A model generated the notes under the pieces. The model worked only from the letters and a program-made list of their open reading frames with translations, ran no database searches and was not told where the DNA came from. 64,000 nt of DNA from Peptoniphilus sp. GNH. GTDB lineage: Bacteria > Bacillota > Clostridia > Tissierellales > Peptoniphilaceae. Every line of letters starts with the position of its first letter. Position 1 is the first letter of the stretch. The DNA is taken from positions 1,760,979-1,824,978 of the forward strand of contig CP089931.1 in NCBI GenBank assembly GCA_021307325.1. The letters run 5' to 3'. Shown here piece by piece: positions 4,666-34,515 of the stretch. The translations under genes were made by a program, and so were the position numbers.

Positions 4666-5601
4666 ATGAAAAATACTTTAAGAAACACCATAATTTGCTT
4701 ATTGATTTTTATGAGCTTTTTATATGAAGTCGGGGCTGAAAATGCAAGAGACTTTCAACCGATGTCAATCGATTTTGAACACATGGAAAAGGTTGAAGCT
4801 GGCGAAGAATTTTCAATCATGAAGTCTAGATTTTCTATCCAGATAAACATGCCTGGCAGGGAAGGCCTTATTACTAAAAAATATAATATGGTTGGCAAAA
4901 ATCCGACCATTGTAGATGTTAAAGAAACTATAAATAATAAAGAAGTTGTTCTAAAGGATATTTTCGTTGCAAGGGTTAAGGCTGAAGACGGAAAAAATGC
5001 GGAATGTCATTTGATTTACAGTCCGTCCTTGACTTCAGAAGGTTTTGTGAAGCCCTATATGCTCTACAAGGGCAAGAAAATTATGGGGCCGATTTACAGA
5101 TATTCTACTTATTTTGACGAAATAGAAGATAGTGTAGTCGCTGATAAGAATCCAGAAAAAGAAAATATCAAGAGAGATTCTAATAAAGATGAGACCAAGC
5201 AGGTTGAAGATTTAAAAACAGAATTTCAGCTCATGATACTTGGCAAAAACATTGGCCTTTCAAAAGAAATGGGAAGTCCCTATATAAAAGATGGAAGGAC
5301 TATGGTACCTATAAGGTTGATTTCTGAAAGTCTTGGCTATGATGTGAAATGGGAACAAAAGACGAAAACTGTTGCAGTGATAGACAGATCTATTGGTAAG
5401 GCTTTGACCTTTAAAGTGGGAAGCCAACTTGTAAATCTCAATGGAAAAGAAGTGCCAATAGAAGCAAAAGATGCATTGCTTGTACCAGAGATTGTAGGAG
5501 GAAGGACTTATCTGCCGCTTAGATTTATTGTCGAAGCTATGGGCCTAAATGTCGCCTACAAACGTGATAATGGAAAGCACATTATAAAAATTTACCAATA
5601 G
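4666..5601 (+). CDS. Secreted protein with C-terminal stalk (copper amine oxidase N-terminal-like) domain
   Basis: 311 residues. An N-terminal signal peptide (positively charged start, hydrophobic residues 9-20) is followed by an unassigned region of about 170 residues and a charged linker. From about residue 195 to the end there are two copies of the stalk-domain pattern: KDGRTMVPIRLISESLGYDV and later GGRTYLPLRFIVEAMGLNV. In Firmicutes this domain (Pfam Cu_amine_oxidN1) is common in secreted and surface proteins without oxidase activity and probably serves as a wall or protein-binding module. The LRR protein at 32348-34390 ends in the same module. A small GC hairpin follows the gene. Confidence 0.8.
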   Translation: MKNTLRNTIICLLIFMSFLYEVGAENARDFQPMSIDFEHMEKVEAGEEFSIMKSRFSIQINMPGREGLITKKYNMVGKNPTIVDVKETINNKEVVLKDIFVARVKAEDGKNAECHLIYSPSLTSEGFVKPYMLYKGKKIMGPIYRYSTYFDEIEDSVVADKNPEKENIKRDSNKDETKQVEDLKTEFQLMILGKNIGLSKEMGSPYIKDGRTMVPIRLISESLGYDVKWEQKTKTVAVIDRSIGKALTFKVGSQLVNLNGKEVPIEAKDALLVPEIVGGRTYLPLRFIVEAMGLNVAYKRDNGKHIIKIYQ

Positions 5602-5604
5602 ATG

Positions 5605-5623
5605 CCGGCCTTGAGCCGGTTTT
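5605..5623 (+). terminator. Short hairpin with T-tract
   Basis: CCGGC (5605-5609) and GCCGG (5615-5619) pair around a 5-base loop and are followed by TTTT. The stem is short, so read-through into the ABC exporter genes is possible. Confidence 0.55.
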
Positions 5624-5679
5624 CCTTATTGCATAAAAAATTTAAACTTGGCACTACAAGCATACTTAAGGGGATAATT

Positions 5680-7386
5680 ATGAAAAAATTTAAATATTTT
5701 CAGAAAAACAAGATGACAATTTTTCTTGTAATTTTTTTAACTTTATTAAATTCATTTGGTGAGATGGGTCTTCCCAGCTTAATGGCTGTGATCATAGATA
5801 AGGGGATTGCAAGATCTGATTTAAAAGTCGTGGTAAGAACTTCTGAGCTGATGCTTATAGTCACAGTCTTTACAGTCTTGGTACGTTCATCTGCTGCGTA
5901 TTTTTCTTCTAAGGTGGCAATGGGTTATGCAGCTTCTCTTAGAAATGAGCTTTACACCAAGATAAATTATATGACCTACAAGGATATGTCCTACTTTGAA
6001 CCATCATCTCTTATAACTAGAACAACAGATGATGTATCCAAGGTGGAACAAATGATTTTAATGGCCCTAAGACCCATGGTGAGATGTCCCTTGCTCTTTT
6101 TGGGAGCCTTTATTATGACTTTTTCAATAGATGCTTATTTGGCAATGATATTTCTTACAATCCTTCCTTTTATGGCATGGTCCTCATTTTATATAAAAAC
6201 CAAGGCACTCCCATATTTTCCAGAAATTCAAAAAAAGATGGATGCCTTAAATATGCTTTTTAGGAGAAGACTATCTGGAATTTTGCCCATAAGAGCTTTT
6301 TCCAAAGATGCCTATGAAGAAGATGAGTTTGATCGAATAAATACCGAGTACACAGAGCTTGGCATAGAAGCCGACAAGAAAATAGACTGGGCAAGAGCTA
6401 TTGCCTATGTGCCTTTGGCATTTGGGATGGGGCTTTTGCTAATCTTTTGTATGAAAAAGATAAATGCATCTACTATGACAATAGGCCAGATGGTCGCCAT
6501 TTGCTCGTACATGGGGCAAGGTTTCATGGCGCTCATAATGCTTATTAATTTGACCTATATGATTCCAAGTTCTACAACTTCCTATAAAAGAATATCTGAA
6601 GTCCTAGACCACGAAAATGAAAAGCTGACTGGAGACTATGTTTTAGATGAGAAAATAAAGTCGATAAGAGTTTCTAATCTTTTTTTTCATTATAGTGGGG
6701 CTGAAAGAGATGTCATATCTGATTGGAATTTTACAATAAAAGAGGGCGAAAGCCTGGGTATCATAGGGGGTATAGGCTCTGGCAAGACGACATTTTTGAA
6801 AATTCTCTTGAGATTTTTAAAGCCTAGCTCCGGCAAGGTACTAATAAATGATATAGATATAAATGACTTGGACTACAAGTCTTACAGAAGGCGACTTTCT
6901 TATGTCAATCAAGATAACTACTTCTTTACTAAAAGCTTGGGAGAAAATCTCTCCTATGCAGATAAAAGTGCAGGCGAGGCAAAATTAATAAAGGCCTTGA
7001 AGCTTTCAAAGGCTTTGGACTTTTTATCCGAAAATCCCCTAGAAGACAAGGTCATAAGAGGGGGGAGCAACTATTCTGGTGGACAAAGACAAAGACTATC
7101 CATAGCCAGGGCGCTTTCTAGAAAAGCTGATGTATATATTTTTGACGACTCTTTCTCTGCCCTAGACTACATTACAGACAGCAAGGTCAGGGAAAATTTG
7201 AATAAGAATTTGCAAGGCTCTATAAAAATTATAGTTGCACAAAGGATTGCCACTATAAAAAAACTGGATAAAATCTTAGTCTTAGACGACGGAAAACAGC
7301 TCGGCTTTGGCAGTCATGATGAACTTATGAAGACTTGCAAAACTTATATTGATATAGCAATTTCACAAGGAGAAGATCAAGAATGA
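5680..7386 (+). CDS. ABC exporter half-transporter, subunit with degenerate catalytic site
   Basis: 568 residues. Six transmembrane helices lie in roughly the first 300 residues, followed by an ATPase domain with Walker A GGIGSGKTT (about residues 363-371) and an intact signature YSGGQRQR. Its Walker B reads IFDDSFSALD, with Asp in place of the catalytic Glu, and its switch position reads VAQR, with Gln in place of His. This is the pattern of the non-catalytic subunit of heterodimeric exporters such as TM287/288, LmrCD and BmrCD. The partner gene starts inside its stop codon (ATGA overlap). The ATG at 5680 follows AAGGGGA; the upstream in-frame extension covers the preceding hairpin and is not coding. 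The exported substrate is unknown (drugs, peptides or lipids are all seen in the family). Confidence 0.92.
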   Translation: MKKFKYFQKNKMTIFLVIFLTLLNSFGEMGLPSLMAVIIDKGIARSDLKVVVRTSELMLIVTVFTVLVRSSAAYFSSKVAMGYAASLRNELYTKINYMTYKDMSYFEPSSLITRTTDDVSKVEQMILMALRPMVRCPLLFLGAFIMTFSIDAYLAMIFLTILPFMAWSSFYIKTKALPYFPEIQKKMDALNMLFRRRLSGILPIRAFSKDAYEEDEFDRINTEYTELGIEADKKIDWARAIAYVPLAFGMGLLLIFCMKKINASTMTIGQMVAICSYMGQGFMALIMLINLTYMIPSSTTSYKRISEVLDHENEKLTGDYVLDEKIKSIRVSNLFFHYSGAERDVISDWNFTIKEGESLGIIGGIGSGKTTFLKILLRFLKPSSGKVLINDIDINDLDYKSYRRRLSYVNQDNYFFTKSLGENLSYADKSAGEAKLIKALKLSKALDFLSENPLEDKVIRGGSNYSGGQRQRLSIARALSRKADVYIFDDSFSALDYITDSKVRENLNKNLQGSIKIIVAQRIATIKKLDKILVLDDGKQLGFGSHDELMKTCKTYIDIAISQGEDQE

Positions 7387-26695: not shown

Positions 26696-28108
26696 TCAAA
26701 CCTCACTTGAAATATCAATATTCAATTCATCCAATTTTCTATAAAGCATAGCCCTAGAAATATTTAAATCGTCGGCAGCTTTTGTTCTATTACCATTATT
26801 AGAGAAAAGGGCATTCAAAATAGCCTGTTTTTCGGCAATGGCTCTAGCCTTAGCAAGAGTTTTTCCCTTGTATAAAGAACTCTTTCTGCTGATTTGTTTA
26901 CTTTCAAAATAATCTCCAATATGGGCCCAGGAAAGAGTATCGGCCCAGGCGAAATTCATTCCTCTTTCAATGACATTTTCAAGTTCCCTTACATTTCCAG
27001 GCCAATCATATTCTTGAAATTTTTCTTTTACAGTGTTTGAAATTCCTGGGACTGCCATACCCAATTGTTTATTTAATTTTGAAAGTAAACTATCTGCCAA
27101 AAGGGGGATATCTTCTTTGCGATTTCTCAAAGGTGGAGAAGTTAGATTAACAACATTTAGCCGATAAAATAGGTCTTCTCTAAATTTTTTTTCTCGTACT
27201 AATTTTTCTAAATTTTGATTTGTAGCAACTATTATCCTGACATCAATTTTTAAGGATGCTTGACTACCTATAGGCTCTATCTCTTGTTCTTGCAAAACTC
27301 TCAATAGCTTTGGTTGAAGCTTAAGAGGTAATTGATGAATTTCATCTAAAAACAAACTTCCACCATTTGCTAGTTCAAATTTTCCTTTTTTACCGCCTGG
27401 CTTAGCACCAGTAAAAGCTCCAGGGCTATATCCAAAAAATTCTGATTCCAATAATTCGGCGGGTATGGCTGCGCAATTTACTTTTATGAAAGGATTTTGA
27501 CTTCTTGAACTAAGTTGATGAATAGAATGGGCGATGAGCTCTTTTCCGGTGCCGCTTTCTCCACTTATTATTACAGTAGAAGATGATCTGGCAACTCTTC
27601 TTATATTAGATTTTAAATTTTTTATAACTTCACTTTTTCCAGTAATAGAATCAATTGAATACCTGGTCTGATTGGTTTCGCAAAAATTTATATTGTAAGA
27701 ATCGAATTTTTTTAGAAGATTATTTATTTTTGAAGTCAGTTCCATCAATTCGCCAGAGCTTTCCAAGGAAGTTATAGTGAATCCTCCTATTAACTTATCA
27801 TTATTAAATAGAGGTGTATATGAACATATACAATGAAACTCTTCTCCATTTTTATTATTTAGAGTTATTATTTGTCCTCTAATAGGAGAACCTGAATTTA
27901 TAACATCTGGAACTAAGCTTTGTGGTATAACATCTTTTACATATTTATTTAAGATATCTTTTTCGTTAAATCCTGTAATGTCTTGCCATTTTCTGGATAC
28001 AAAAACATAACGTCCTTTTTCATCAAACACCATGAATCCATCTAATTCCTCTATAAGACATTCAAATAAAATTTCTTTTGAAAAATTTTTTAATAATAAA
28101 TTCCCCAT
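26696..28108 (-). CDS. Sigma-54-dependent activator with PAS sensor
   Basis: 470 residues. A PAS domain (about 12-115: FMVFDEKGRYVFVSRKWQ, DITGFNE) is followed by a short linker and the AAA+ core with Walker A GESGTGKE (183-190), the sigma-54-contacting loop GAFTGA (230-235), Walker B SLFLDE (251-256) and PGNVRELENVIERG. A Fis-type helix-turn-helix at the C-terminus (GNRTKAADDLNISRAMLYRK) completes it. The protein remodels sigma-54 RNA polymerase using ATP in response to a signal sensed by PAS. The gene diverges from a perfect -24/-12 promoter at 28284-28300, so it most likely controls the cyclase-symporter-BKACE operon. Confidence 0.95.
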   Translation of the reverse strand: MGNLLLKNFSKEILFECLIEELDGFMVFDEKGRYVFVSRKWQDITGFNEKDILNKYVKDVIPQSLVPDVINSGSPIRGQIITLNNKNGEEFHCICSYTPLFNNDKLIGGFTITSLESSGELMELTSKINNLLKKFDSYNINFCETNQTRYSIDSITGKSEVIKNLKSNIRRVARSSSTVIISGESGTGKELIAHSIHQLSSRSQNPFIKVNCAAIPAELLESEFFGYSPGAFTGAKPGGKKGKFELANGGSLFLDEIHQLPLKLQPKLLRVLQEQEIEPIGSQASLKIDVRIIVATNQNLEKLVREKKFREDLFYRLNVVNLTSPPLRNRKEDIPLLADSLLSKLNKQLGMAVPGISNTVKEKFQEYDWPGNVRELENVIERGMNFAWADTLSWAHIGDYFESKQISRKSSLYKGKTLAKARAIAEKQAILNALFSNNGNRTKAADDLNISRAMLYRKLDELNIDISSEV

Positions 28109-28158
28109 AAAAGCCCCCTTGTAAAAATAATTGTATCATAAAATATACGTTTCATAAA

Positions 28159-28171
28159 TGAGACAGTCTCA
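28159..28171. promoter_or_regulatory. Candidate activator-binding site (dyad) upstream of the sigma-54 promoter
   Basis: TGAGAC-A-GTCTCA is a perfect 13-base dyad, preceded by a TCAT-AA-ATGA inverted repeat at about 28152-28161. It lies about 125 bases upstream of the -12 element, the usual distance for an enhancer bound by a Fis-HTH activator. Confidence 0.55.
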
Positions 28172-28283
28172 AATAAGTGCTATTTGTTCTAGATATGTAA
28201 AAAAAATAATACAGTAAAAACGATTTCACGTAAAAAAAGTTTATAGAAGGCTTATTTTATGGGAAATATTTTTTAAATATAAG

Positions 28284-28300
28284 TGGCACGCAATTTGCTT
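28284..28300 (+). promoter_or_regulatory. Sigma-54 (-24/-12) promoter
   Basis: TGGCACGCAATTTGCTT matches the consensus TGGCAC-N5-TTGCW, with the invariant GG (28285-28286) and GC (28297-28298) separated by exactly ten bases. It lies about 50 bases before the cyclase gene, and a sigma-54 activator gene is divergent. Confidence 0.92.
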
Positions 28301-28348
28301 CTGTATATTGTTGCTAGCAAATAGAAAATAAAGAAAAGGGGAGATTTT

Positions 28349-29122
28349 ATGAAAATAGTAGATTTATCAATTTTAATCGAGTCGGATTTACCAAGTGATC
28401 CACCGCCACAAAGACCGCATATTACATATCATACACATAAAGAAACATCAACTCAGATGGTGGATTATTTTAAGGGCTTAATATCAGTCGAAGATTTACC
28501 AGAAGGAAATGGATGGGCAATTGAAGATGTGATGTTGACAACACATTCAGGAACACACGTTGATGCTCCTATACATTATTATCCAACTATGGAGAATGGA
28601 AAAAGAGCATGGTCAATTGATGAAGTGCCTCTTGATTGGTTCATAGGAAATGGTGTGAAATTAGATTTTAGCGATAAAGAAGATGGATACCAAATAAGTG
28701 CAAATGACATAAAAGAGTACTTAAAAAAATTTGATTATACTTTGAAAGAAGGGGATATTGTTCTCTTGCAAACTGGGGCGACAAAGCATTGGGGCACAGA
28801 AAAATTTTTAACTGCTGGGCCTGGAATGACAGCAGAAGCTACAGAATATTTAATTGGAAATGGAGTAAAGGTAATGGGGACTGACGGATGGTCATGGGAT
28901 ATTCCACTTCCTTTACAAGCAAAGATATTTGAAAAACAAAGAGATCCTAAGATAATTTGGGAAGGTCATAGAGTTGGTATAAAACATGCTTATTGCCACA
29001 TAGAAAAATTAACAAATTTGGAAAGTTTACCCTTTACAGGATATACATTCATGTGTCTACCAGTAAAAATAAAGGGCGGTAGTGCTGGATGGTGTCGTGC
29101 AGTGGCGATTTTCAACGAGTAG
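28349..29122 (+). CDS. Cyclase-family metal-dependent hydrolase
   Basis: 257 residues of the cyclase/kynurenine formamidase-like family (Pfam PF04199). The metal motif HSGTHVDAPIH is complete (His66, His70, Asp72, His76), and a later GTDGWSWD and KHAYCHIEKL supply the rest of the pocket. Members hydrolyse amides, lactones, cyclic imides or isatin-like rings. The insert IIWEGHRVGIKHAYC is typical of catabolic subgroups rather than tryptophan-pathway formamidases. It is the first gene of the sigma-54 operon; a symporter starts nine bases after its stop. It probably opens or deacylates the imported compound. RBS: AAGGGGAG. Confidence 0.85.
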   Translation: MKIVDLSILIESDLPSDPPPQRPHITYHTHKETSTQMVDYFKGLISVEDLPEGNGWAIEDVMLTTHSGTHVDAPIHYYPTMENGKRAWSIDEVPLDWFIGNGVKLDFSDKEDGYQISANDIKEYLKKFDYTLKEGDIVLLQTGATKHWGTEKFLTAGPGMTAEATEYLIGNGVKVMGTDGWSWDIPLPLQAKIFEKQRDPKIIWEGHRVGIKHAYCHIEKLTNLESLPFTGYTFMCLPVKIKGGSAGWCRAVAIFNE

Positions 29123-29131
29123 GAGATAATT

Positions 29132-31102
29132 ATGAGTGCGAATACTTATTTTATAGTAATTTTTATAATATTTTGCGGATTCTTACTTTCAGCAGGGCTT
29201 ATAAGCAAAAGTTGGGTCAAAGAATCATCAGATTATGTTTTGGCAGGAAGAGAAATTTCTACAATAATTAATACAGTTGGTGTTTGTGCAATTGGATTTG
29301 CGGGAACAACAGTTACGCTTGCGCCAGCATTTACTGTTCAGTATGGACTTTTGGGCGGACTTGGATGGGGCGGCATATATTCAATCTGCGGTCTATTATT
29401 ATTTGGACTTCTCTATTCTAATTTTATAAGAAGAAGTGGAGCTCAAACTCTTCCTGAATATTTAGAGATGAGATATGACACTAAGACCAGATCTGTTGTA
29501 GCTATAACATCAGTTATAGGTATGTGCGGGATTATGGCTAATAATGTTGTATCTAGTGTAGACAATATTGTAGCTTATACTGGCTGGGACAGATTACTTG
29601 TAACAGCAATTATATTTGGAGTAATTATAATTTTTACATTTATATCAGGACTATGGGCTACAACCATAACTGATTTATTCCAAGTTTTTATAGGTGTTGT
29701 TATGGTACCTACAGCCTTTATACTAATTACAAGAAGATTTGGTTGGGTAGATGTTATTTTTAATTCATGGGAGCCAGGAAATTTCATAAATCAAGGGTTC
29801 CAAGGTACAATACCGGGGTTAAAGCTTACGTATCCATCAATATTTAACTTTGTAATATGTTTTGCAGCGGCTTTAGTCTGGGGAAATAATTACTATTGGA
29901 TGAAAGTTGCGAATTGTAGGAGCGAAAAAGTTGCGAGGAGGTCTTTTGTATATGCTGCTATTATTTTGTTAGTAGTATTTATGATCCCTCTAGCATATTT
30001 GGGCGGATACATGGGAGCCTTTTATCCAGGAGAACTTTTAAGGAATGGTGGTAAAGTTTTAGATACTGGAGTTTATGGATTTTTAGCATCGACATTTATT
30101 CCGATATTAGGTTCTCTTATGGTAATTTCTGCCGTTGCAGCGTCTATATCAACAGCATCAACATCAGCCCTTGGCGCATCCGCAGTAGCGAATAGAGATA
30201 TATATCAAAGACTTATAAATCCAAATGCTGATACAAAAACTCAACTTAAAATGTCAAAAATAATAATGCTAATTGTTGGAGTTGTAACATTTTTACTTTG
30301 TCAATTCCCTGGAGGACCAACTTATTTGTTTGCTTTTGCTAATTGCTGGTTAGTTCCACCGGCAATACTTTTAGGACTTGGAGTTGTATGGAGAAGATTT
30401 AATTCTAAAGGAGCTTTTTGGGGGGCTGTTTGCGGAATGGCAACTATGGTTGTATTTACCATTTTGCAATTAACTAAAGTATTTAATGTAGGTTCATATA
30501 TTTTTCTTGCAACATTGGGCTTTGTAGTAACTTTAATAGTAGCAATCCTGGCTTCTATAGGAGATAAACCTAAATATTTTGGACAAAGTGATTGGCAAAG
30601 AGTTCCTAATAAAACAAATAGGAAAGATGTAAAATTAAACGAAATAGATTTAAATGTACTTAACCTATTGTATGTGGGTCACTCATACATGTCGGACATT
30701 ACTGACTCTTTGGGAGTTGGATCGGAAATATCAAGTGCTATAATTGAAAAATTAGATAAGGGTGGATATCTTTTAAGAAAGGGCTTTATCGGATCTGCAT
30801 TTTATACCTTTGAACTAACTCAAAAAGGAAAAGATGCACTTGGAACAAAAACGGATATAGAGGAAAAACTGGCAAAAGATTATATATCAGTGCAATATTT
30901 AGATTTGTTAAGGCTATTAGAACACGACTCAAACAAGCAAGCTGAATTTATAAAAGAAAATAAAATTCAGTCATTGAGAATGTCTGCTATTTGTTCACAT
31001 CTTACAAGAAGAGGATATGTAGTTGAAAAAGGAATGTTTAAAAGACATTTGTTGATTACGAAATCTGGAAAAGATATTGTAGAAAAATATAAAAACATAT
31101 AG
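29132..31102 (+). CDS. Sodium:solute symporter with C-terminal tandem winged-helix domains
   Basis: 656 residues. The first 480 or so hold about 13 transmembrane helices of the SSS family: YVLAGREIS, NTVGVCAIGFAGTT, QTLPEYLEMRYD, and AASISTASTSALGASAVANR where the sodium-site serines lie. After a basic linker, residues about 503-570 read like a winged helix (LNVLNLLYVGHSYMSDITDS, then a recognition-like helix and a YTFELTQKGKDAL wing). Residues about 580-652 look like a second one (RMSAICSHLTRRGYV, HLLITKSGKDIV). SSS proteins rarely carry such a tail; it could sense the cargo, bind DNA at the membrane, or gate transport. The substrate is unknown but should be that of the flanking hydrolase and BKACE enzyme. 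Confidence 0.88.
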   Translation: MSANTYFIVIFIIFCGFLLSAGLISKSWVKESSDYVLAGREISTIINTVGVCAIGFAGTTVTLAPAFTVQYGLLGGLGWGGIYSICGLLLFGLLYSNFIRRSGAQTLPEYLEMRYDTKTRSVVAITSVIGMCGIMANNVVSSVDNIVAYTGWDRLLVTAIIFGVIIIFTFISGLWATTITDLFQVFIGVVMVPTAFILITRRFGWVDVIFNSWEPGNFINQGFQGTIPGLKLTYPSIFNFVICFAAALVWGNNYYWMKVANCRSEKVARRSFVYAAIILLVVFMIPLAYLGGYMGAFYPGELLRNGGKVLDTGVYGFLASTFIPILGSLMVISAVAASISTASTSALGASAVANRDIYQRLINPNADTKTQLKMSKIIMLIVGVVTFLLCQFPGGPTYLFAFANCWLVPPAILLGLGVVWRRFNSKGAFWGAVCGMATMVVFTILQLTKVFNVGSYIFLATLGFVVTLIVAILASIGDKPKYFGQSDWQRVPNKTNRKDVKLNEIDLNVLNLLYVGHSYMSDITDSLGVGSEISSAIIEKLDKGGYLLRKGFIGSAFYTFELTQKGKDALGTKTDIEEKLAKDYISVQYLDLLRLLEHDSNKQAEFIKENKIQSLRMSAICSHLTRRGYVVEKGMFKRHLLITKSGKDIVEKYKNI

Positions 31103-31164
31103 AAGATAGAATGATCATATTAATCAAAATGTATATGATAAATTATATGAAGAAAGGAATTTAA

Positions 31165-32004
31165 ATGGCAAAGACAATAATTACAGTAGCTACGACAGGC
31201 GCTTGGCCAACAAAAGACAATAATCCGAATGTGCCGATGACACCATATGAAATAGCTGAAGATATATATGATTGCTGGAAGGGCGGAGCAGCCATAGCAC
31301 ATCTTCACATGAGAGATGACGCTGGAAAAGGAACAATGGATGTCAATAAATTTGAAGAAACGGTAAAAATTTTAAGACAAAGGCATCCGGATTGTGATAT
31401 AGTATTAAATTTCACTACATCAGGAGATTTAAACGCCACAGATAAGACAAGGCAAGAACATTTAGAAAAATTGAGACCAGAAATGTGTTCATATGATGCA
31501 GGTTCAATGAATTGGCTACACTCAGGCTTATTTATAAATCATCCTAAATTTTTGGAGGAACTTGGAATAAATACACAAAAATGGGGGATAAAACCCGAAA
31601 TAGAAGCGTTTGATCCAGGCATGATAGGAAATGCAGCTTACTATTTGAAAAAGGGAATATTGAAAGCACCATTACATTTTCAATTTTGTATGGGATGTGC
31701 AAATGGAATTGCAGGCAGTATGAAAAATTTAGTTTTCATGAAAGAAACTATGGAAAGCTTATGTCCAGGATCCACTTGGTCATGTTTTGGAGTGGGTCGA
31801 TCTGCAATGGAAATGATCTATGGAGCAGTTGCTATGGGCGGACATATTAGGGTTGGCATGGAAGATAATGTAATGTATGGAAAGGACCAACTTGCAAAGT
31901 CTAACAGACAATTTGTAGAAAGAGCTGCTAGAATAATAGAAGAATTTGGGAATGAAGTGGCTAGCCCTAATGACGCTAGGAAGATTCTTGGGTTAAAAAA
32001 ATAA
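31165..32004 (+). CDS. BKACE-family beta-keto acid cleavage enzyme
   Basis: 279 residues matching the 3-keto-5-aminohexanoate cleavage enzyme family (Pfam PF05853). The zinc ligands HLH at 46-48 followed by MRDD, the ETVKILRQ helix, CSYDAGSMNW, and the C-terminal RVGMEDN (Arg229, Glu233) line up with catalytic positions of Kce. The family condenses a beta-keto acid with acetyl-CoA to give acetoacetate and a new acyl-CoA. No lysine-fermentation genes surround it, so the substrate is probably not the lysine intermediate. As the last gene of the sigma-54 operon it likely finishes breakdown of the imported compound. RBS AAAGGAATTTAA. Confidence 0.9.
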   Translation: MAKTIITVATTGAWPTKDNNPNVPMTPYEIAEDIYDCWKGGAAIAHLHMRDDAGKGTMDVNKFEETVKILRQRHPDCDIVLNFTTSGDLNATDKTRQEHLEKLRPEMCSYDAGSMNWLHSGLFINHPKFLEELGINTQKWGIKPEIEAFDPGMIGNAAYYLKKGILKAPLHFQFCMGCANGIAGSMKNLVFMKETMESLCPGSTWSCFGVGRSAMEMIYGAVAMGGHIRVGMEDNVMYGKDQLAKSNRQFVERAARIIEEFGNEVASPNDARKILGLKK

Positions 32005-32347: not shown

Positions 32348-34390
32348 TTATTTTGCAACTTTTCTTGTGATGATAACTTCCTTTGCGCTTGCATCCCAAA
32401 TAATGTCTTTGCCATCTTCTAAGCCCAAGGCTCTTGCAATGTTTGCTATGGGTAGCATTGTTCTGTTATTTTTAAGGACTGGTTTGACATCACTTTCATA
32501 CTCTTTTCCATTTACAATGATTTTGTTTGTGGCTACTGGAATCTTCACTACATTTTCCTTATCGATTAGGACTACAGTTCTTTGGTCATTATCCCACACT
32601 ACATTAAAATCTAAAGCTTCTGCAATAAACCTAATTGGTAGCATAGTCCTGCCATTTTTTATAAATGGAGCAACATCCATAGTTATTCTTTCTTCTATTC
32701 CATCTATTGATTTAATCATTTCTTTCGAGCCAATTACTAATTTTACTTTTAGTTTTATAGTTTTAGCTGCACTTATCCTTAATGGAATGAATGTAGAGTG
32801 ATCGCTTTTAGCTACTGGTAATATTATTATTTTTAAATTGGCTTCAACAATTTCCTTTGGATTATCACACAACTGATATTGAAATTTTATAGGGTTAGTT
32901 GACCTATCCCACTTAAAGCCATCTGCTTCTAAGTCTGCACCTGTAATTGGTCCATCAATCTTATCCTTGTAAAAACCTTGGGGAAGTGCAGTAAAGGGAA
33001 TTTTTGAACTTCCTTCTGCCACTCTTACAGTATATGTTACAGGAGATAATTCCTTTTCAATACCCTCATCAGAATCCTCATTAGGATTTTCTTCAGGTAG
33101 TTTTACATATGTCAACGGATTATTTTTGCCCCCCAAATAATAAAGATGTGTGTTATTGCTTAGATTCAAATTTGTTAGGTAATTACTATGACACTTTACT
33201 AGATAAAGATAAGCGTTTTGGCTTAGGTCTAAATTTGTCAGTTGGTTTTCACTGCAATTCAATCCTCCGAGATTTATATTATTTTTTAGGTCTAATTTTG
33301 TTATTTTGTTGTTACTACATTCAAAGTCATTAAGAGCCGTGTTCTTGCTTAGGTCTAGATTGGTTAGTTGGTTACCTTCACAATCAAGCTTAGTAAGTGC
33401 TGTGTTGTTACTTACATCTAAACTTGTTAGTCGGTTATTCTTACAATGCAAATTAGTAATGATTGTGTTTTTGCTTAGATCTAATTTTGTTATTTTGTTG
33501 TTACTACATTCTAAGTCAACAAGATTCGTGTTCTTGCTTAAATCTAAATTTATTAGTTGGTTATTAAAACAAATCAATTTAGTAAGAGTTGTGTTTTTAC
33601 TTACATCTAAACTTGTTAGTTGATTTTCACAACAATACAATATAGTAAGAGCTGCGTTTCCACTTAGATCTAGACCTGTTAGTTGGTTTCTATCACAATT
33701 CAATTCAGTAAGAGCTGTGTTTTTACTTAGGTCTAAACTTGTTAGTTGGTTATTAAAACAAGCCAATTTAGTAAGGGATGTATTTTCACTTAAATTTATA
33801 CTTGTTAGTTGATTATTATAACAATTCAATTCAGTAAGGGCTGTATTTTTACTTAAATCTAGACTTGTTAGTTGATTATTATAACAATCCAATTCAGTAA
33901 GGACTTTATTTTCACCTAAAACCAAACTACTTAGTTGGTTTTCATAACAATCCAATTTAGTAAGGGCTGTATTATTACTTAGGTCTAGACTTGTTAGTTT
34001 AGTTCCAATACATATCAATTCAGTAAGGGCTGTATTTTTACTTAGGTCTAAACTTGTTAGATTATTATTATTAACACATTGAAGTTTCTTAAGATTTTTG
34101 AAATATTCAATGCCCTTTAAATTTTTTATATCTAATTCCCTATAGGTATGAAAATTATAAAAACTTAAATCCATTTTCTGAACTGCATCAAGTTCTTTCT
34201 GGCTTAAAGTACCATCTTTATCTTTATCAAACCAGCTTACATACCACCTAAATATTTCATCAGGAAAGTTTGCCTCATCTATTTTTACACCGTCATCTGC
34301 ATATGTAAGTATTGGGTTTAGGGGTAGGCAAGCTATAAGCATTGCAAGGGCAAGGAAAAGTCCCATTATTTTGTTCTTGGTTTCTTTCAT
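32348..34390 (-). CDS. Secreted leucine-rich-repeat protein with C-terminal stalk domain
   Basis: 680 residues. A signal peptide (hydrophobic LFLALAMLIACLPL, cleaved near TYADD) is followed by a short region with an EF-hand/dockerin-like loop (DKDKDGTLSQKE). About sixteen 21-residue repeats follow, of the form LTELxCxxNQLTSLDLSKNTA. A linker leads to a C-terminal stalk (Cu_amine_oxidN-like) module: IKNGRTMLPIRFIAEALDF and KNNRTMLPIANIARALGL. No LPXTG anchor is seen. Such proteins sit at the surface and bind host or neighbour-cell ligands. ATG 34388-34390 follows GGAGGTAAAA; an ATG 12 bases earlier overlaps that site. It has its own strong promoter and terminator. Confidence 0.9.
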   Translation of the reverse strand: MKETKNKIMGLFLALAMLIACLPLNPILTYADDGVKIDEANFPDEIFRWYVSWFDKDKDGTLSQKELDAVQKMDLSFYNFHTYRELDIKNLKGIEYFKNLKKLQCVNNNNLTSLDLSKNTALTELICIGTKLTSLDLSNNTALTKLDCYENQLSSLVLGENKVLTELDCYNNQLTSLDLSKNTALTELNCYNNQLTSINLSENTSLTKLACFNNQLTSLDLSKNTALTELNCDRNQLTGLDLSGNAALTILYCCENQLTSLDVSKNTTLTKLICFNNQLINLDLSKNTNLVDLECSNNKITKLDLSKNTIITNLHCKNNRLTSLDVSNNTALTKLDCEGNQLTNLDLSKNTALNDFECSNNKITKLDLKNNINLGGLNCSENQLTNLDLSQNAYLYLVKCHSNYLTNLNLSNNTHLYYLGGKNNPLTYVKLPEENPNEDSDEGIEKELSPVTYTVRVAEGSSKIPFTALPQGFYKDKIDGPITGADLEADGFKWDRSTNPIKFQYQLCDNPKEIVEANLKIIILPVAKSDHSTFIPLRISAAKTIKLKVKLVIGSKEMIKSIDGIEERITMDVAPFIKNGRTMLPIRFIAEALDFNVVWDNDQRTVVLIDKENVVKIPVATNKIIVNGKEYESDVKPVLKNNRTMLPIANIARALGLEDGKDIIWDASAKEVIITRKVAK
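33105..34095 (-). repeat. Sixteen 63-base tandem repeats encoding LRR units
   Basis: Repeats of 63 bases encode 21-residue units with consensus LTxLxCxxNQLTSLDLSKNTA. Adjacent copies differ by scattered substitutions, and the terminal ones are the most diverged. The period and coding frame exclude a CRISPR array. Copy number could change by recombination. Confidence 0.85.
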
Positions 34391-34515
34391 TTTTACCTCC
34401 ATTTTATTTTTCCTTTTTAGATTTATATTTTTATATTTTTATATTTATCTCATAGTAGGTAAGTATTATATTTTCTATCACCCATTTAGCTTAGATTATA
34501 TAAATTTGCCCTTAA

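Follow-up and report, generated by a model that had tools for sequence, protein, structure and literature searches.

Why should a sodium:solute symporter (SSS) end in a pair of winged helices? The question is raised by an open reading frame at 29132-31102 (forward strand) of the window, a stretch of 64,000 nucleotides from Peptoniphilus sp. GNH (contig CP089931.1). An earlier note on this DNA had read the end of the protein as two winged helices, in a family whose members usually end in short or kinase-type tails. It had suggested that such a tail could make the transporter a membrane-bound regulator, acting on the region 28109-28348, or that the domains may serve protein contacts.

The transporter and its tandem winged-helix tail

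The reading frame encodes 656 amino acids from an ATG start, and by its sequence the product is an SSS-family transporter. Residues 35-435 matched the Pfam SSF model with 83.5 bits (cut-off 22.8). The NCBIfam model for the SSS superfamily, TIGR00813, was covered over its whole length (1-411 of 411) at 102.5 bits, short of its cut-off of 184. Because the Pfam model was matched and TIGR00813 fell below its cut-off, the protein was read as a divergent member of the family (TC 2.A.21), with putative sodium coupling. The membrane domain, residues 1-481 (29132-30574, forward strand), was delimited using hydropathy and the positive charges after the last helix. It is expected to contain about 13 transmembrane helices; there are 14 hydropathy peaks, two of them adjacent, which is consistent with that number. 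As the tail comes after a basic stretch, it is most likely on the cytoplasmic side of the transporter.

The last 155 residues or so are predicted to form two winged helices. In a structure prediction of the whole protein from 9 sequences, the overall pLDDT was 53.5 and the membrane part was unreliable; the tail appeared as two winged-helix units, each running helix-helix-helix-strand-strand-helix. The same elements were obtained, with pLDDT 94.5 and pTM 0.88, when the tail was predicted by itself with AlphaFold2 from a 55-sequence alignment. This alignment, in which tail position n is protein residue n+477, comprised the window, 51 of the 55 loci from the genome scan described below, and L006, L012 and L013; it omitted the contig-truncated L051 and L069 as well as L045 and L055, which are near copies. 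The first unit, WH1, spans residues 501-570 (30632-30841, forward strand) and was placed from the prediction and from conservation. The second unit, WH2, spans residues 587-656 (30890-31099, forward strand) and has a basic recognition helix and a short wing; VIA-align and charge were used here as well as prediction and conservation.

MarR proteins were the top matches when WH2 (model residues 94-179) was compared using VIA-align. YusO gave Z 11.9 with an rmsd of 2.6 Å over 86 residues, and CouR (p-coumaroyl-CoA) was among the matches. Since these alignments cover WH2 only, the identity of WH1 rests on the prediction, on profile matches and on homology to WH2, the two units being homologous by hhalign (probability 95.9, E 5e-9). 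Against PDB sequences, the tail profile matched a MarR protein (E 1.2e-4) and MntR (E 6.5e-4). A Foldseek search of the PDB with the whole tail listed ScpB, MarR and MntR proteins, none with E < 0.001, so no solved protein having the two-domain arrangement of the tail was listed. The tail alone (residues 495-656) gave only sub-threshold Pfam matches, to HTH_45 (21.4 bits, cut-off 25.5), MarR_2 (20.1, cut-off 27) and HTH_27 (19.6, cut-off 22.2), and NCBIfam likewise gave only sub-threshold winged-helix matches. No kinase domain was matched after the SSS domain in Pfam or NCBIfam up to E 1. The fold put forward in the earlier note is present in the prediction, and the tail is neither short nor kinase-type. 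The segments QKGKDAL and KSGKDIV, which that note had picked out as wing endings, do occupy matching positions, each where the short closing helix of its unit begins.

Compared to MarR-family transcription factors, the tail has the same predicted winged-helix fold, with Z up to 11.9 for WH2, but it does not reach the MarR_2 cut-off, it joins two units in one membrane-anchored chain, and the D-x-R pattern of the MarR wing is absent. MarR proteins have C-terminal dimerisation helices, for which there is no room here, the chain ending soon after the last short helix. ScpB/KITE proteins carry two winged helices in one chain for protein contacts and have a role in chromosome organisation. ScpB was the first Foldseek row for the tail (E 9.9e-3, TM-score 0.29), with no shared arrangement shown.

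The SSS/STAC sensor kinases CbrA and CrbS/MxtR also have an SSS membrane domain followed by a C-terminal cytoplasmic regulatory extension. According to the portions of the sources consulted, theirs consists of STAC, PAS, DHp and CA kinase domains (PMC7918813, PMC13022988), whereas that of the window protein is two winged helices. The STAC-kinase extensions are described in a review of prokaryotic SSS proteins (PMC7918813); in its text the words 'winged', 'extension' and 'DNA-binding' are absent and 'helix-turn-helix' occurs once, in a legend. In the literature searched, by title and abstract and with few subscription papers covered, no SSS protein with a winged-helix tail is described. The earlier note had allowed that the tail might be a common SSS extension of known non-DNA function; the same literature describes no function for such a tail.

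Distribution of the fused form and its split counterpart in haloarchaea

One genome per species (84,980 species) was scanned using the seeds VWGNNYY and GPTYLFAF. Both seeds come from the membrane domain, so the presence of a tail played no part in the selection. The scan yielded 55 loci, which belong to Firmicutes and Spirochaetes. A tail profile, built mostly from those same 55 loci, matched 54 of them, and both winged helices were present in 53; the two exceptions are cut by contig ends, L069 after WH1 and L051 before the tail. With both units in 53 loci and the other two truncated, the tail is not a chance addition, and within the sampled genomes it is a fixed feature of one SSS clade. The tailed transporter occurs in gut anaerobes, including Flavonifractor plautii and Eubacterium ramulus (L021, L031).

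Within the window's family (130 genomes), tail matches of any kind came from two, the genome of the window and that of L004 (54 residues, E 3.3e-4). L004 was set aside, as it is that short, has an internal stop, lies at a contig start and gave no tblastn match to P0001 at E 1e-5; given the contig start, an SSS gene may have stood upstream of it. In the order, 12 of 249 genomes had a tail match. Besides the window, eight have it in reading frames of 595-665 amino acids whose alignment with P0001 spans both the membrane domain and the tail; one of them, L006, has lost its N-terminus at a contig end. The weak matches L014 and L015 were judged by eye to be MarR regulators and set aside. An even draw across the phylum gave 6 of 398 genomes at E 1e-8, the window's included. 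Five of these, again including the window, have SSS and tail in reading frames of 659-677 amino acids, one of them no more than 29% identical. In the sixth (L078, L080), contig ends split the protein into residues 4-594 and 606-656. No free-standing bacterial copy of the tail was seen in this 398-genome draw. As a separate observation, the stretch 26696-32004 of the window may have been laterally acquired. This is suggested by the family count, in which the window and one weak 54-residue match were found in 130 genomes, and by the SSS tree, in which the window protein groups with Oscillospiraceae and Fusibacter and not with Tissierella.

In the alignment, D525, L541 and R549 of WH1 are invariant in all 55 rows. 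In WH2, E632 and G634 are invariant (54/54) and S614 and R638 are found in 53 of 54 rows. The tail evolves faster than the membrane domain, mean identities over 1326 pairs being 38.6% and 52.3%, respectively. Between the window and nine near relatives the tail identity is 49% and that of the membrane domain 73%, compared to 61% and 73% among those nine. At position 530 the window protein has G, in place of the D shared by the 54 other rows. From this faster drift and the loss of D530, the function of the tail in this particular protein could be relaxing.

When plasmids were searched by tblastn with the tail, a single record was found, a Natronococcus megaplasmid (L005). There the tandem winged-helix protein is separate, 190 amino acids long, with its ATG at 5911 and an 8-base overlap with the SSS stop. 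A Halomarina plasmid (L081), whose SSS had been fetched as a tree outgroup, likewise has a separate 183-residue tandem winged-helix reading frame, at 5385-5933, one base after the SSS stop. The profile matched the Natronococcus protein at E 1e-28 and the Halomarina protein at 7e-19, the best of 500 shuffles of the latter giving 0.79, and each gene is by far the best match on its replicon of about 1 Mb (3.1e-27 against 3e-4 for the next in Natronococcus, 1.5e-17 against 0.004 in Halomarina). In the SSS tree, which left out L051, L065, L069, L037 and L017, these two archaeal transporters branch off, one after the other, just outside the 51 fused rows (supports 96/80 and 99/96), a placement made unsure by long branches and midpoint rooting. 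Four other outgroup records (L082-L085) have no winged-helix neighbour in their annotation, and profile matches to them were either lacking or above 0.001 and elsewhere on the record. Both archaeal loci also contain a PF04199 cyclase gene. The only other regulator among the ten reading frames scanned around the Natronococcus SSS was a TetR gene about 5 kb away; in the Halomarina stretch, an IclR gene lies upstream of the SSS at a distance of about 3 kb. When two genes are fused in one lineage and closely adjacent in another, this is a classical sign that their products work together.

Regulators, promoters and the case for DNA binding

In the window, the transporter gene is the second of a presumed operon of three on the forward strand. 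It is preceded by a gene of the metal-dependent cyclase/hydrolase family (PF04199, 28349-29122, Pfam 130 bits) and followed by a BKACE gene (31165-32004, Pfam 344 bits). The operon would be transcribed from TGGCACgcaatTTGCT at 28284-28299 (forward strand), a sigma-54 promoter of the -24/-12 type by its sequence pattern, facing a divergent gene (26696-28108, reverse strand) for a sigma-54 activator with PAS, AAA+ and Fis-type domains. This activator, which scores 417.6 bits with the NCBIfam model PrdR (cut-off 795), is likely the operon's regulator, and the short palindromes TGAGACAGTCTCA at 28159-28171 and CAAATAAGTGCTATTTG at 28170-28186 are candidate sites for it. Further along, at 32348-34402 (reverse strand), a large protein with leucine-rich repeats and a repeated C-terminal domain was noted by eye only. 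The region 28109-28348, on which the earlier note had the transporter acting, thus holds a sigma-54-type promoter beside a divergent AAA+ activator. Activation of a sigma-54 promoter would not be expected from a winged helix that lacks an AAA+ domain, though repression would be possible.

The neighbours of the tailed transporter were counted by tblastn (E 1e-6) at 57 loci (55 bacterial, with up to 8 kb on each side, and the 2 archaeal; the window was not counted). The cyclase was found at 43 loci, BKACE at 29, a thiolase at 21, a CoA-transferase at 11 and an FAH-type hydrolase at 8. Two candidates were discarded: the neighbour cluster c11, apparently a new gene, was revealed by tblastn to be an artefact antisense to the cyclase gene, and a 'minus-strand SSS' was taken for an artefact of the same kind. 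Soluble regulators of three unrelated kinds were seen, namely the sigma-54 activator (30 loci), TrmB (10) and a MalT-like LuxR protein (10); L057, where a TrmB gene adjoins the operon and a MalT-like gene lies 3.6 kb away, is counted twice. All these matches lie within 4.6 kb of the SSS gene. One or other kind is present at 49 of the 55 bacterial loci; the eight loci with none of the three are those of the two archaea plus six bacterial ones whose upstream sequence is shorter than 4 kb.

Upstream regions were compared for 47 loci, 31 of the sigma-54 type (window included), 9 of the TrmB type and 7 of the MalT type; L041, L060, L066 and loci with no regulator found were dropped. The motif TACTAC-N4-GTAGTA occurs at 8 of 9 TrmB loci and at none of 38 others. 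TGTAAAC-N4-GTTTACA occurs at 10 of 31 sigma-54 loci and at none of 16 others, with the window itself below threshold (10 of 14 letters). The sigma-54 pattern, at 9 of 11 letters, was matched in 24 of 31 sigma-54 regions, 3 of 9 TrmB regions and 0 of 7 MalT regions; in a sample of 16 from the 31 sigma-54 loci, a -24/-12-type pattern was present in all except L022. These counts describe rather than test, because the motifs were first noticed in the same regions. No palindrome common to all three classes (exact 5+5 dyads) was found, but as 10 shuffles gave none either, this is weak evidence. The shuffles preserved base composition only. At the TrmB-type loci L040, L049, L050, L052, L056 and L062, the TACTAC-N4-GTAGTA-like palindrome lies upstream of the operon and is a candidate operator of this TrmB subgroup. 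The promoter motifs follow the soluble regulator, and the regulators are swapped around a conserved tail.

Net charges and wing motifs were scored with simple patterns and fixed windows and are approximate. The mean net charge of the recognition helix is +2.0 in WH2 and -0.5 in WH1, compared to +1.0 in MarR controls, and that of the wing is +2.1 in WH2 against +1.2 in the controls. Over whole units, the means for the 55 rows are +4.8 for WH2 (range -1 to +11) and -2.4 for WH1 (-8 to +4). Mostly basic residues are found in the WH2 rows at positions 616, 623, 626, 637 and 638, counting H as basic at 623. The D-x-R wing pattern was found in 25 of 30 MarR_2 controls, at least one of the five misses (L116) being a failure of the pattern itself. 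In 55 tailed proteins, contig-cut L069 included, it was matched nowhere in the WH2 stretch and four times in the WH1 stretch (L039, L049, L050 and L052), on inspection always outside the wing. WH1 has no basic recognition helix and neither wing has D-x-R, whereas the helix and wing of WH2 are more basic than those of the 30 MarR controls, so that WH2 may contact DNA.

Could the tail be a membrane-tethered regulator, with WH2 on an operator, WH1 as its pseudo-dimer partner and the transport state setting access to DNA, ie a one-step transceptor? Its MarR-type fold, the basic helix and wing of WH2 and the free-standing form adjoining the transporter in two archaea would suit that role. However, soluble regulators of three unrelated kinds already accompany nearly all the bacterial loci, the promoter motifs track them, the promoter in the window is of the sigma-54 type, the helix of WH1 is near-neutral and neither wing carries D-x-R. 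We consider such a regulator unlikely. As a first choice, a membrane-bound regulator with its target in 28109-28348 lacks support; soluble regulator and promoter motif change among relatives while the tail stays. A related proposal is that the tail exerts a transport-coupled repression superimposed on the soluble activator, the membrane-anchored WH2 acting as a head on DNA or another nucleic acid, with the unfused archaeal protein representing the ancestral repressor. This we regard as quite unlikely.

Role of the tail and the imported compound

At nine loci the only regulator is MalT-like, and its gene begins within about 155 bases after the SSS gene; at six of these nine (L058, L060, L061, L064, L066 and L067) the SSS stop lies inside ATGA or GTGA. 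At L046, L047, L058, L060, L061, L064, L066 and L067 (Spirochaete, Halanaerobiaceae), a MalT-like TPR-LuxR gene directly follows the transporter, and a coupled regulator-transporter pair is possible. MalK holds MalT in a comparable way, and the tail might similarly be a docking platform, tethering either the soluble regulator or the cyclase, as the first catabolic enzyme, to the transporter. The close MalT-like genes would fit, as would the standing of the cyclase as the commonest neighbour, both archaea included. Yet the fold of the regulator changes between loci while the tail is conserved, and the 12 genomes with a cyclase-free locus all keep the tailed transporter. Elsewhere in those 12 genomes, which are of unstated completeness and include several MAGs, there is a strong cyclase match in 2, only a weak one in 6 (E 6.5e-7 to 9.7e-15) and none in 4. 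The cyclase was ranked low as a docking partner because the tailed transporter is retained where a strong cyclase match is missing, and docking as a whole appears improbable. We are just as doubtful of a sensing tail in which the basic WH2 lies on acidic membrane lipids, or binds a soluble ligand, and activity is set by ionic strength or by a metabolite. The basic WH2 beside an acidic WH1 is what such a tail would show, but the charge pattern suits several other partners equally well and varies widely between rows.

The reading ranked first takes the tail as a cytoplasmic module for regulation or assembly that works through protein contacts, not as the transcription factor of the operon, and derives it from a co-encoded tandem winged-helix protein. 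We give it about an even chance. It was placed first because of the swapped regulators, the promoter features, the absence of D-x-R and the non-basic helix of WH1; DNA or lipid binding by WH2 was kept as a possibility because the basic recognition helix and wing are conserved. The protein contacts that the earlier note offered as its alternative fit better than a DNA regulator. The ancestor would have been a small protein of two winged helices whose gene adjoined that of the transporter, as it still does in the two haloarchaea; its fusion to the SSS C-terminus would have occurred in the ancestor of the bacterial clade. The two units would lie beneath the transporter, in the cytoplasm, where the acidic WH1 and the basic WH2 may bind to one another, to a second protomer, to the membrane or to cytoplasmic loops of the transporter. 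Such contacts would stabilise the transporter or gate it on a cytoplasmic cue. Natural candidates for the cue would be the compound taken up or its CoA ester, as binding of such compounds is known from some MarR-type proteins, for example CouR, which binds p-coumaroyl-CoA.

In favour of a regulatory module are the predicted fold, its fixed association with one clade, the unfused archaeal neighbours and the exchange of regulators and promoter motifs around a conserved tail lacking D-x-R in its wings. Against it, the model of the full protein is not a confident one, and contact, gating and stability effects are proposals; WH2 has the basic recognition helix and wing of a DNA binder, a small winged-helix gene beside an archaeal transporter also resembles a local repressor, the archaeal branches are insecurely placed in the tree and the window tail has drifted. 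Overall, control of the transporter is the probable function of the tail, with DNA binding as a less well supported possibility.

FeoC, from the FeoABC ferrous iron transporter, is a single domain with a winged-helix fold. Like the proposed module it acts on a transporter, being a small protein that reportedly shields FeoB from FtsH, but it has an iron-sulphur cluster (PMC10710835, in the part available) and its transporter is unrelated. In the same part of that source, FeoC and the PII proteins are earlier examples of small proteins with an action on transporters (PMC10710835).

A ring-shaped 1,3-dicarbonyl or a beta-keto acid is probably what the transporter imports; the cyclase would open it and BKACE would cleave it. 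The available part of a published account of the phloroglucinol pathway has a 'cyclase' opening dihydrophloroglucinol and a BKACE-family enzyme cleaving triacetate (PMC10470551). The Clostridium scatologenes cluster for this pathway also contains a cyclase-family hydrolase, a BKACE-family enzyme and a thiolase homologue; its transporter, by contrast, is given there as a 'major family transporter' (PMC10470551). The window BKACE is below the cut-offs of all four NCBIfam models it matched, scoring 213.5 bits against the 3,5-dioxohexanoate equivalog NF053538 (cut-off 430), and phloroglucinol was not adopted as the substrate for this reason. On the haloarchaeal megaplasmid (L005, 1-4104), genes for the C-terminal part of a kynureninase, an indoleamine 2,3-dioxygenase-type protein, a cyclase and an FAH protein lie beside the transporter. 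Judged by sequence, this cluster suggests tryptophan or kynurenine breakdown, and in view of its kynureninase and dioxygenase-type genes substrates may differ between lineages.

Control of transporters by kinase, CBS or PII-type modules is known (PMC10710835, PMC7918813, in the parts available); to these a winged-helix pair, fixed as a domain of a transporter, would add one more control module. With the split form in archaea, two genes suffice for a clean test of where the winged-helix protein acts, on the transporter or on DNA. In gut anaerobes, the tailed SSS marks a tractable uptake system for what is probably a ring or beta-keto compound.
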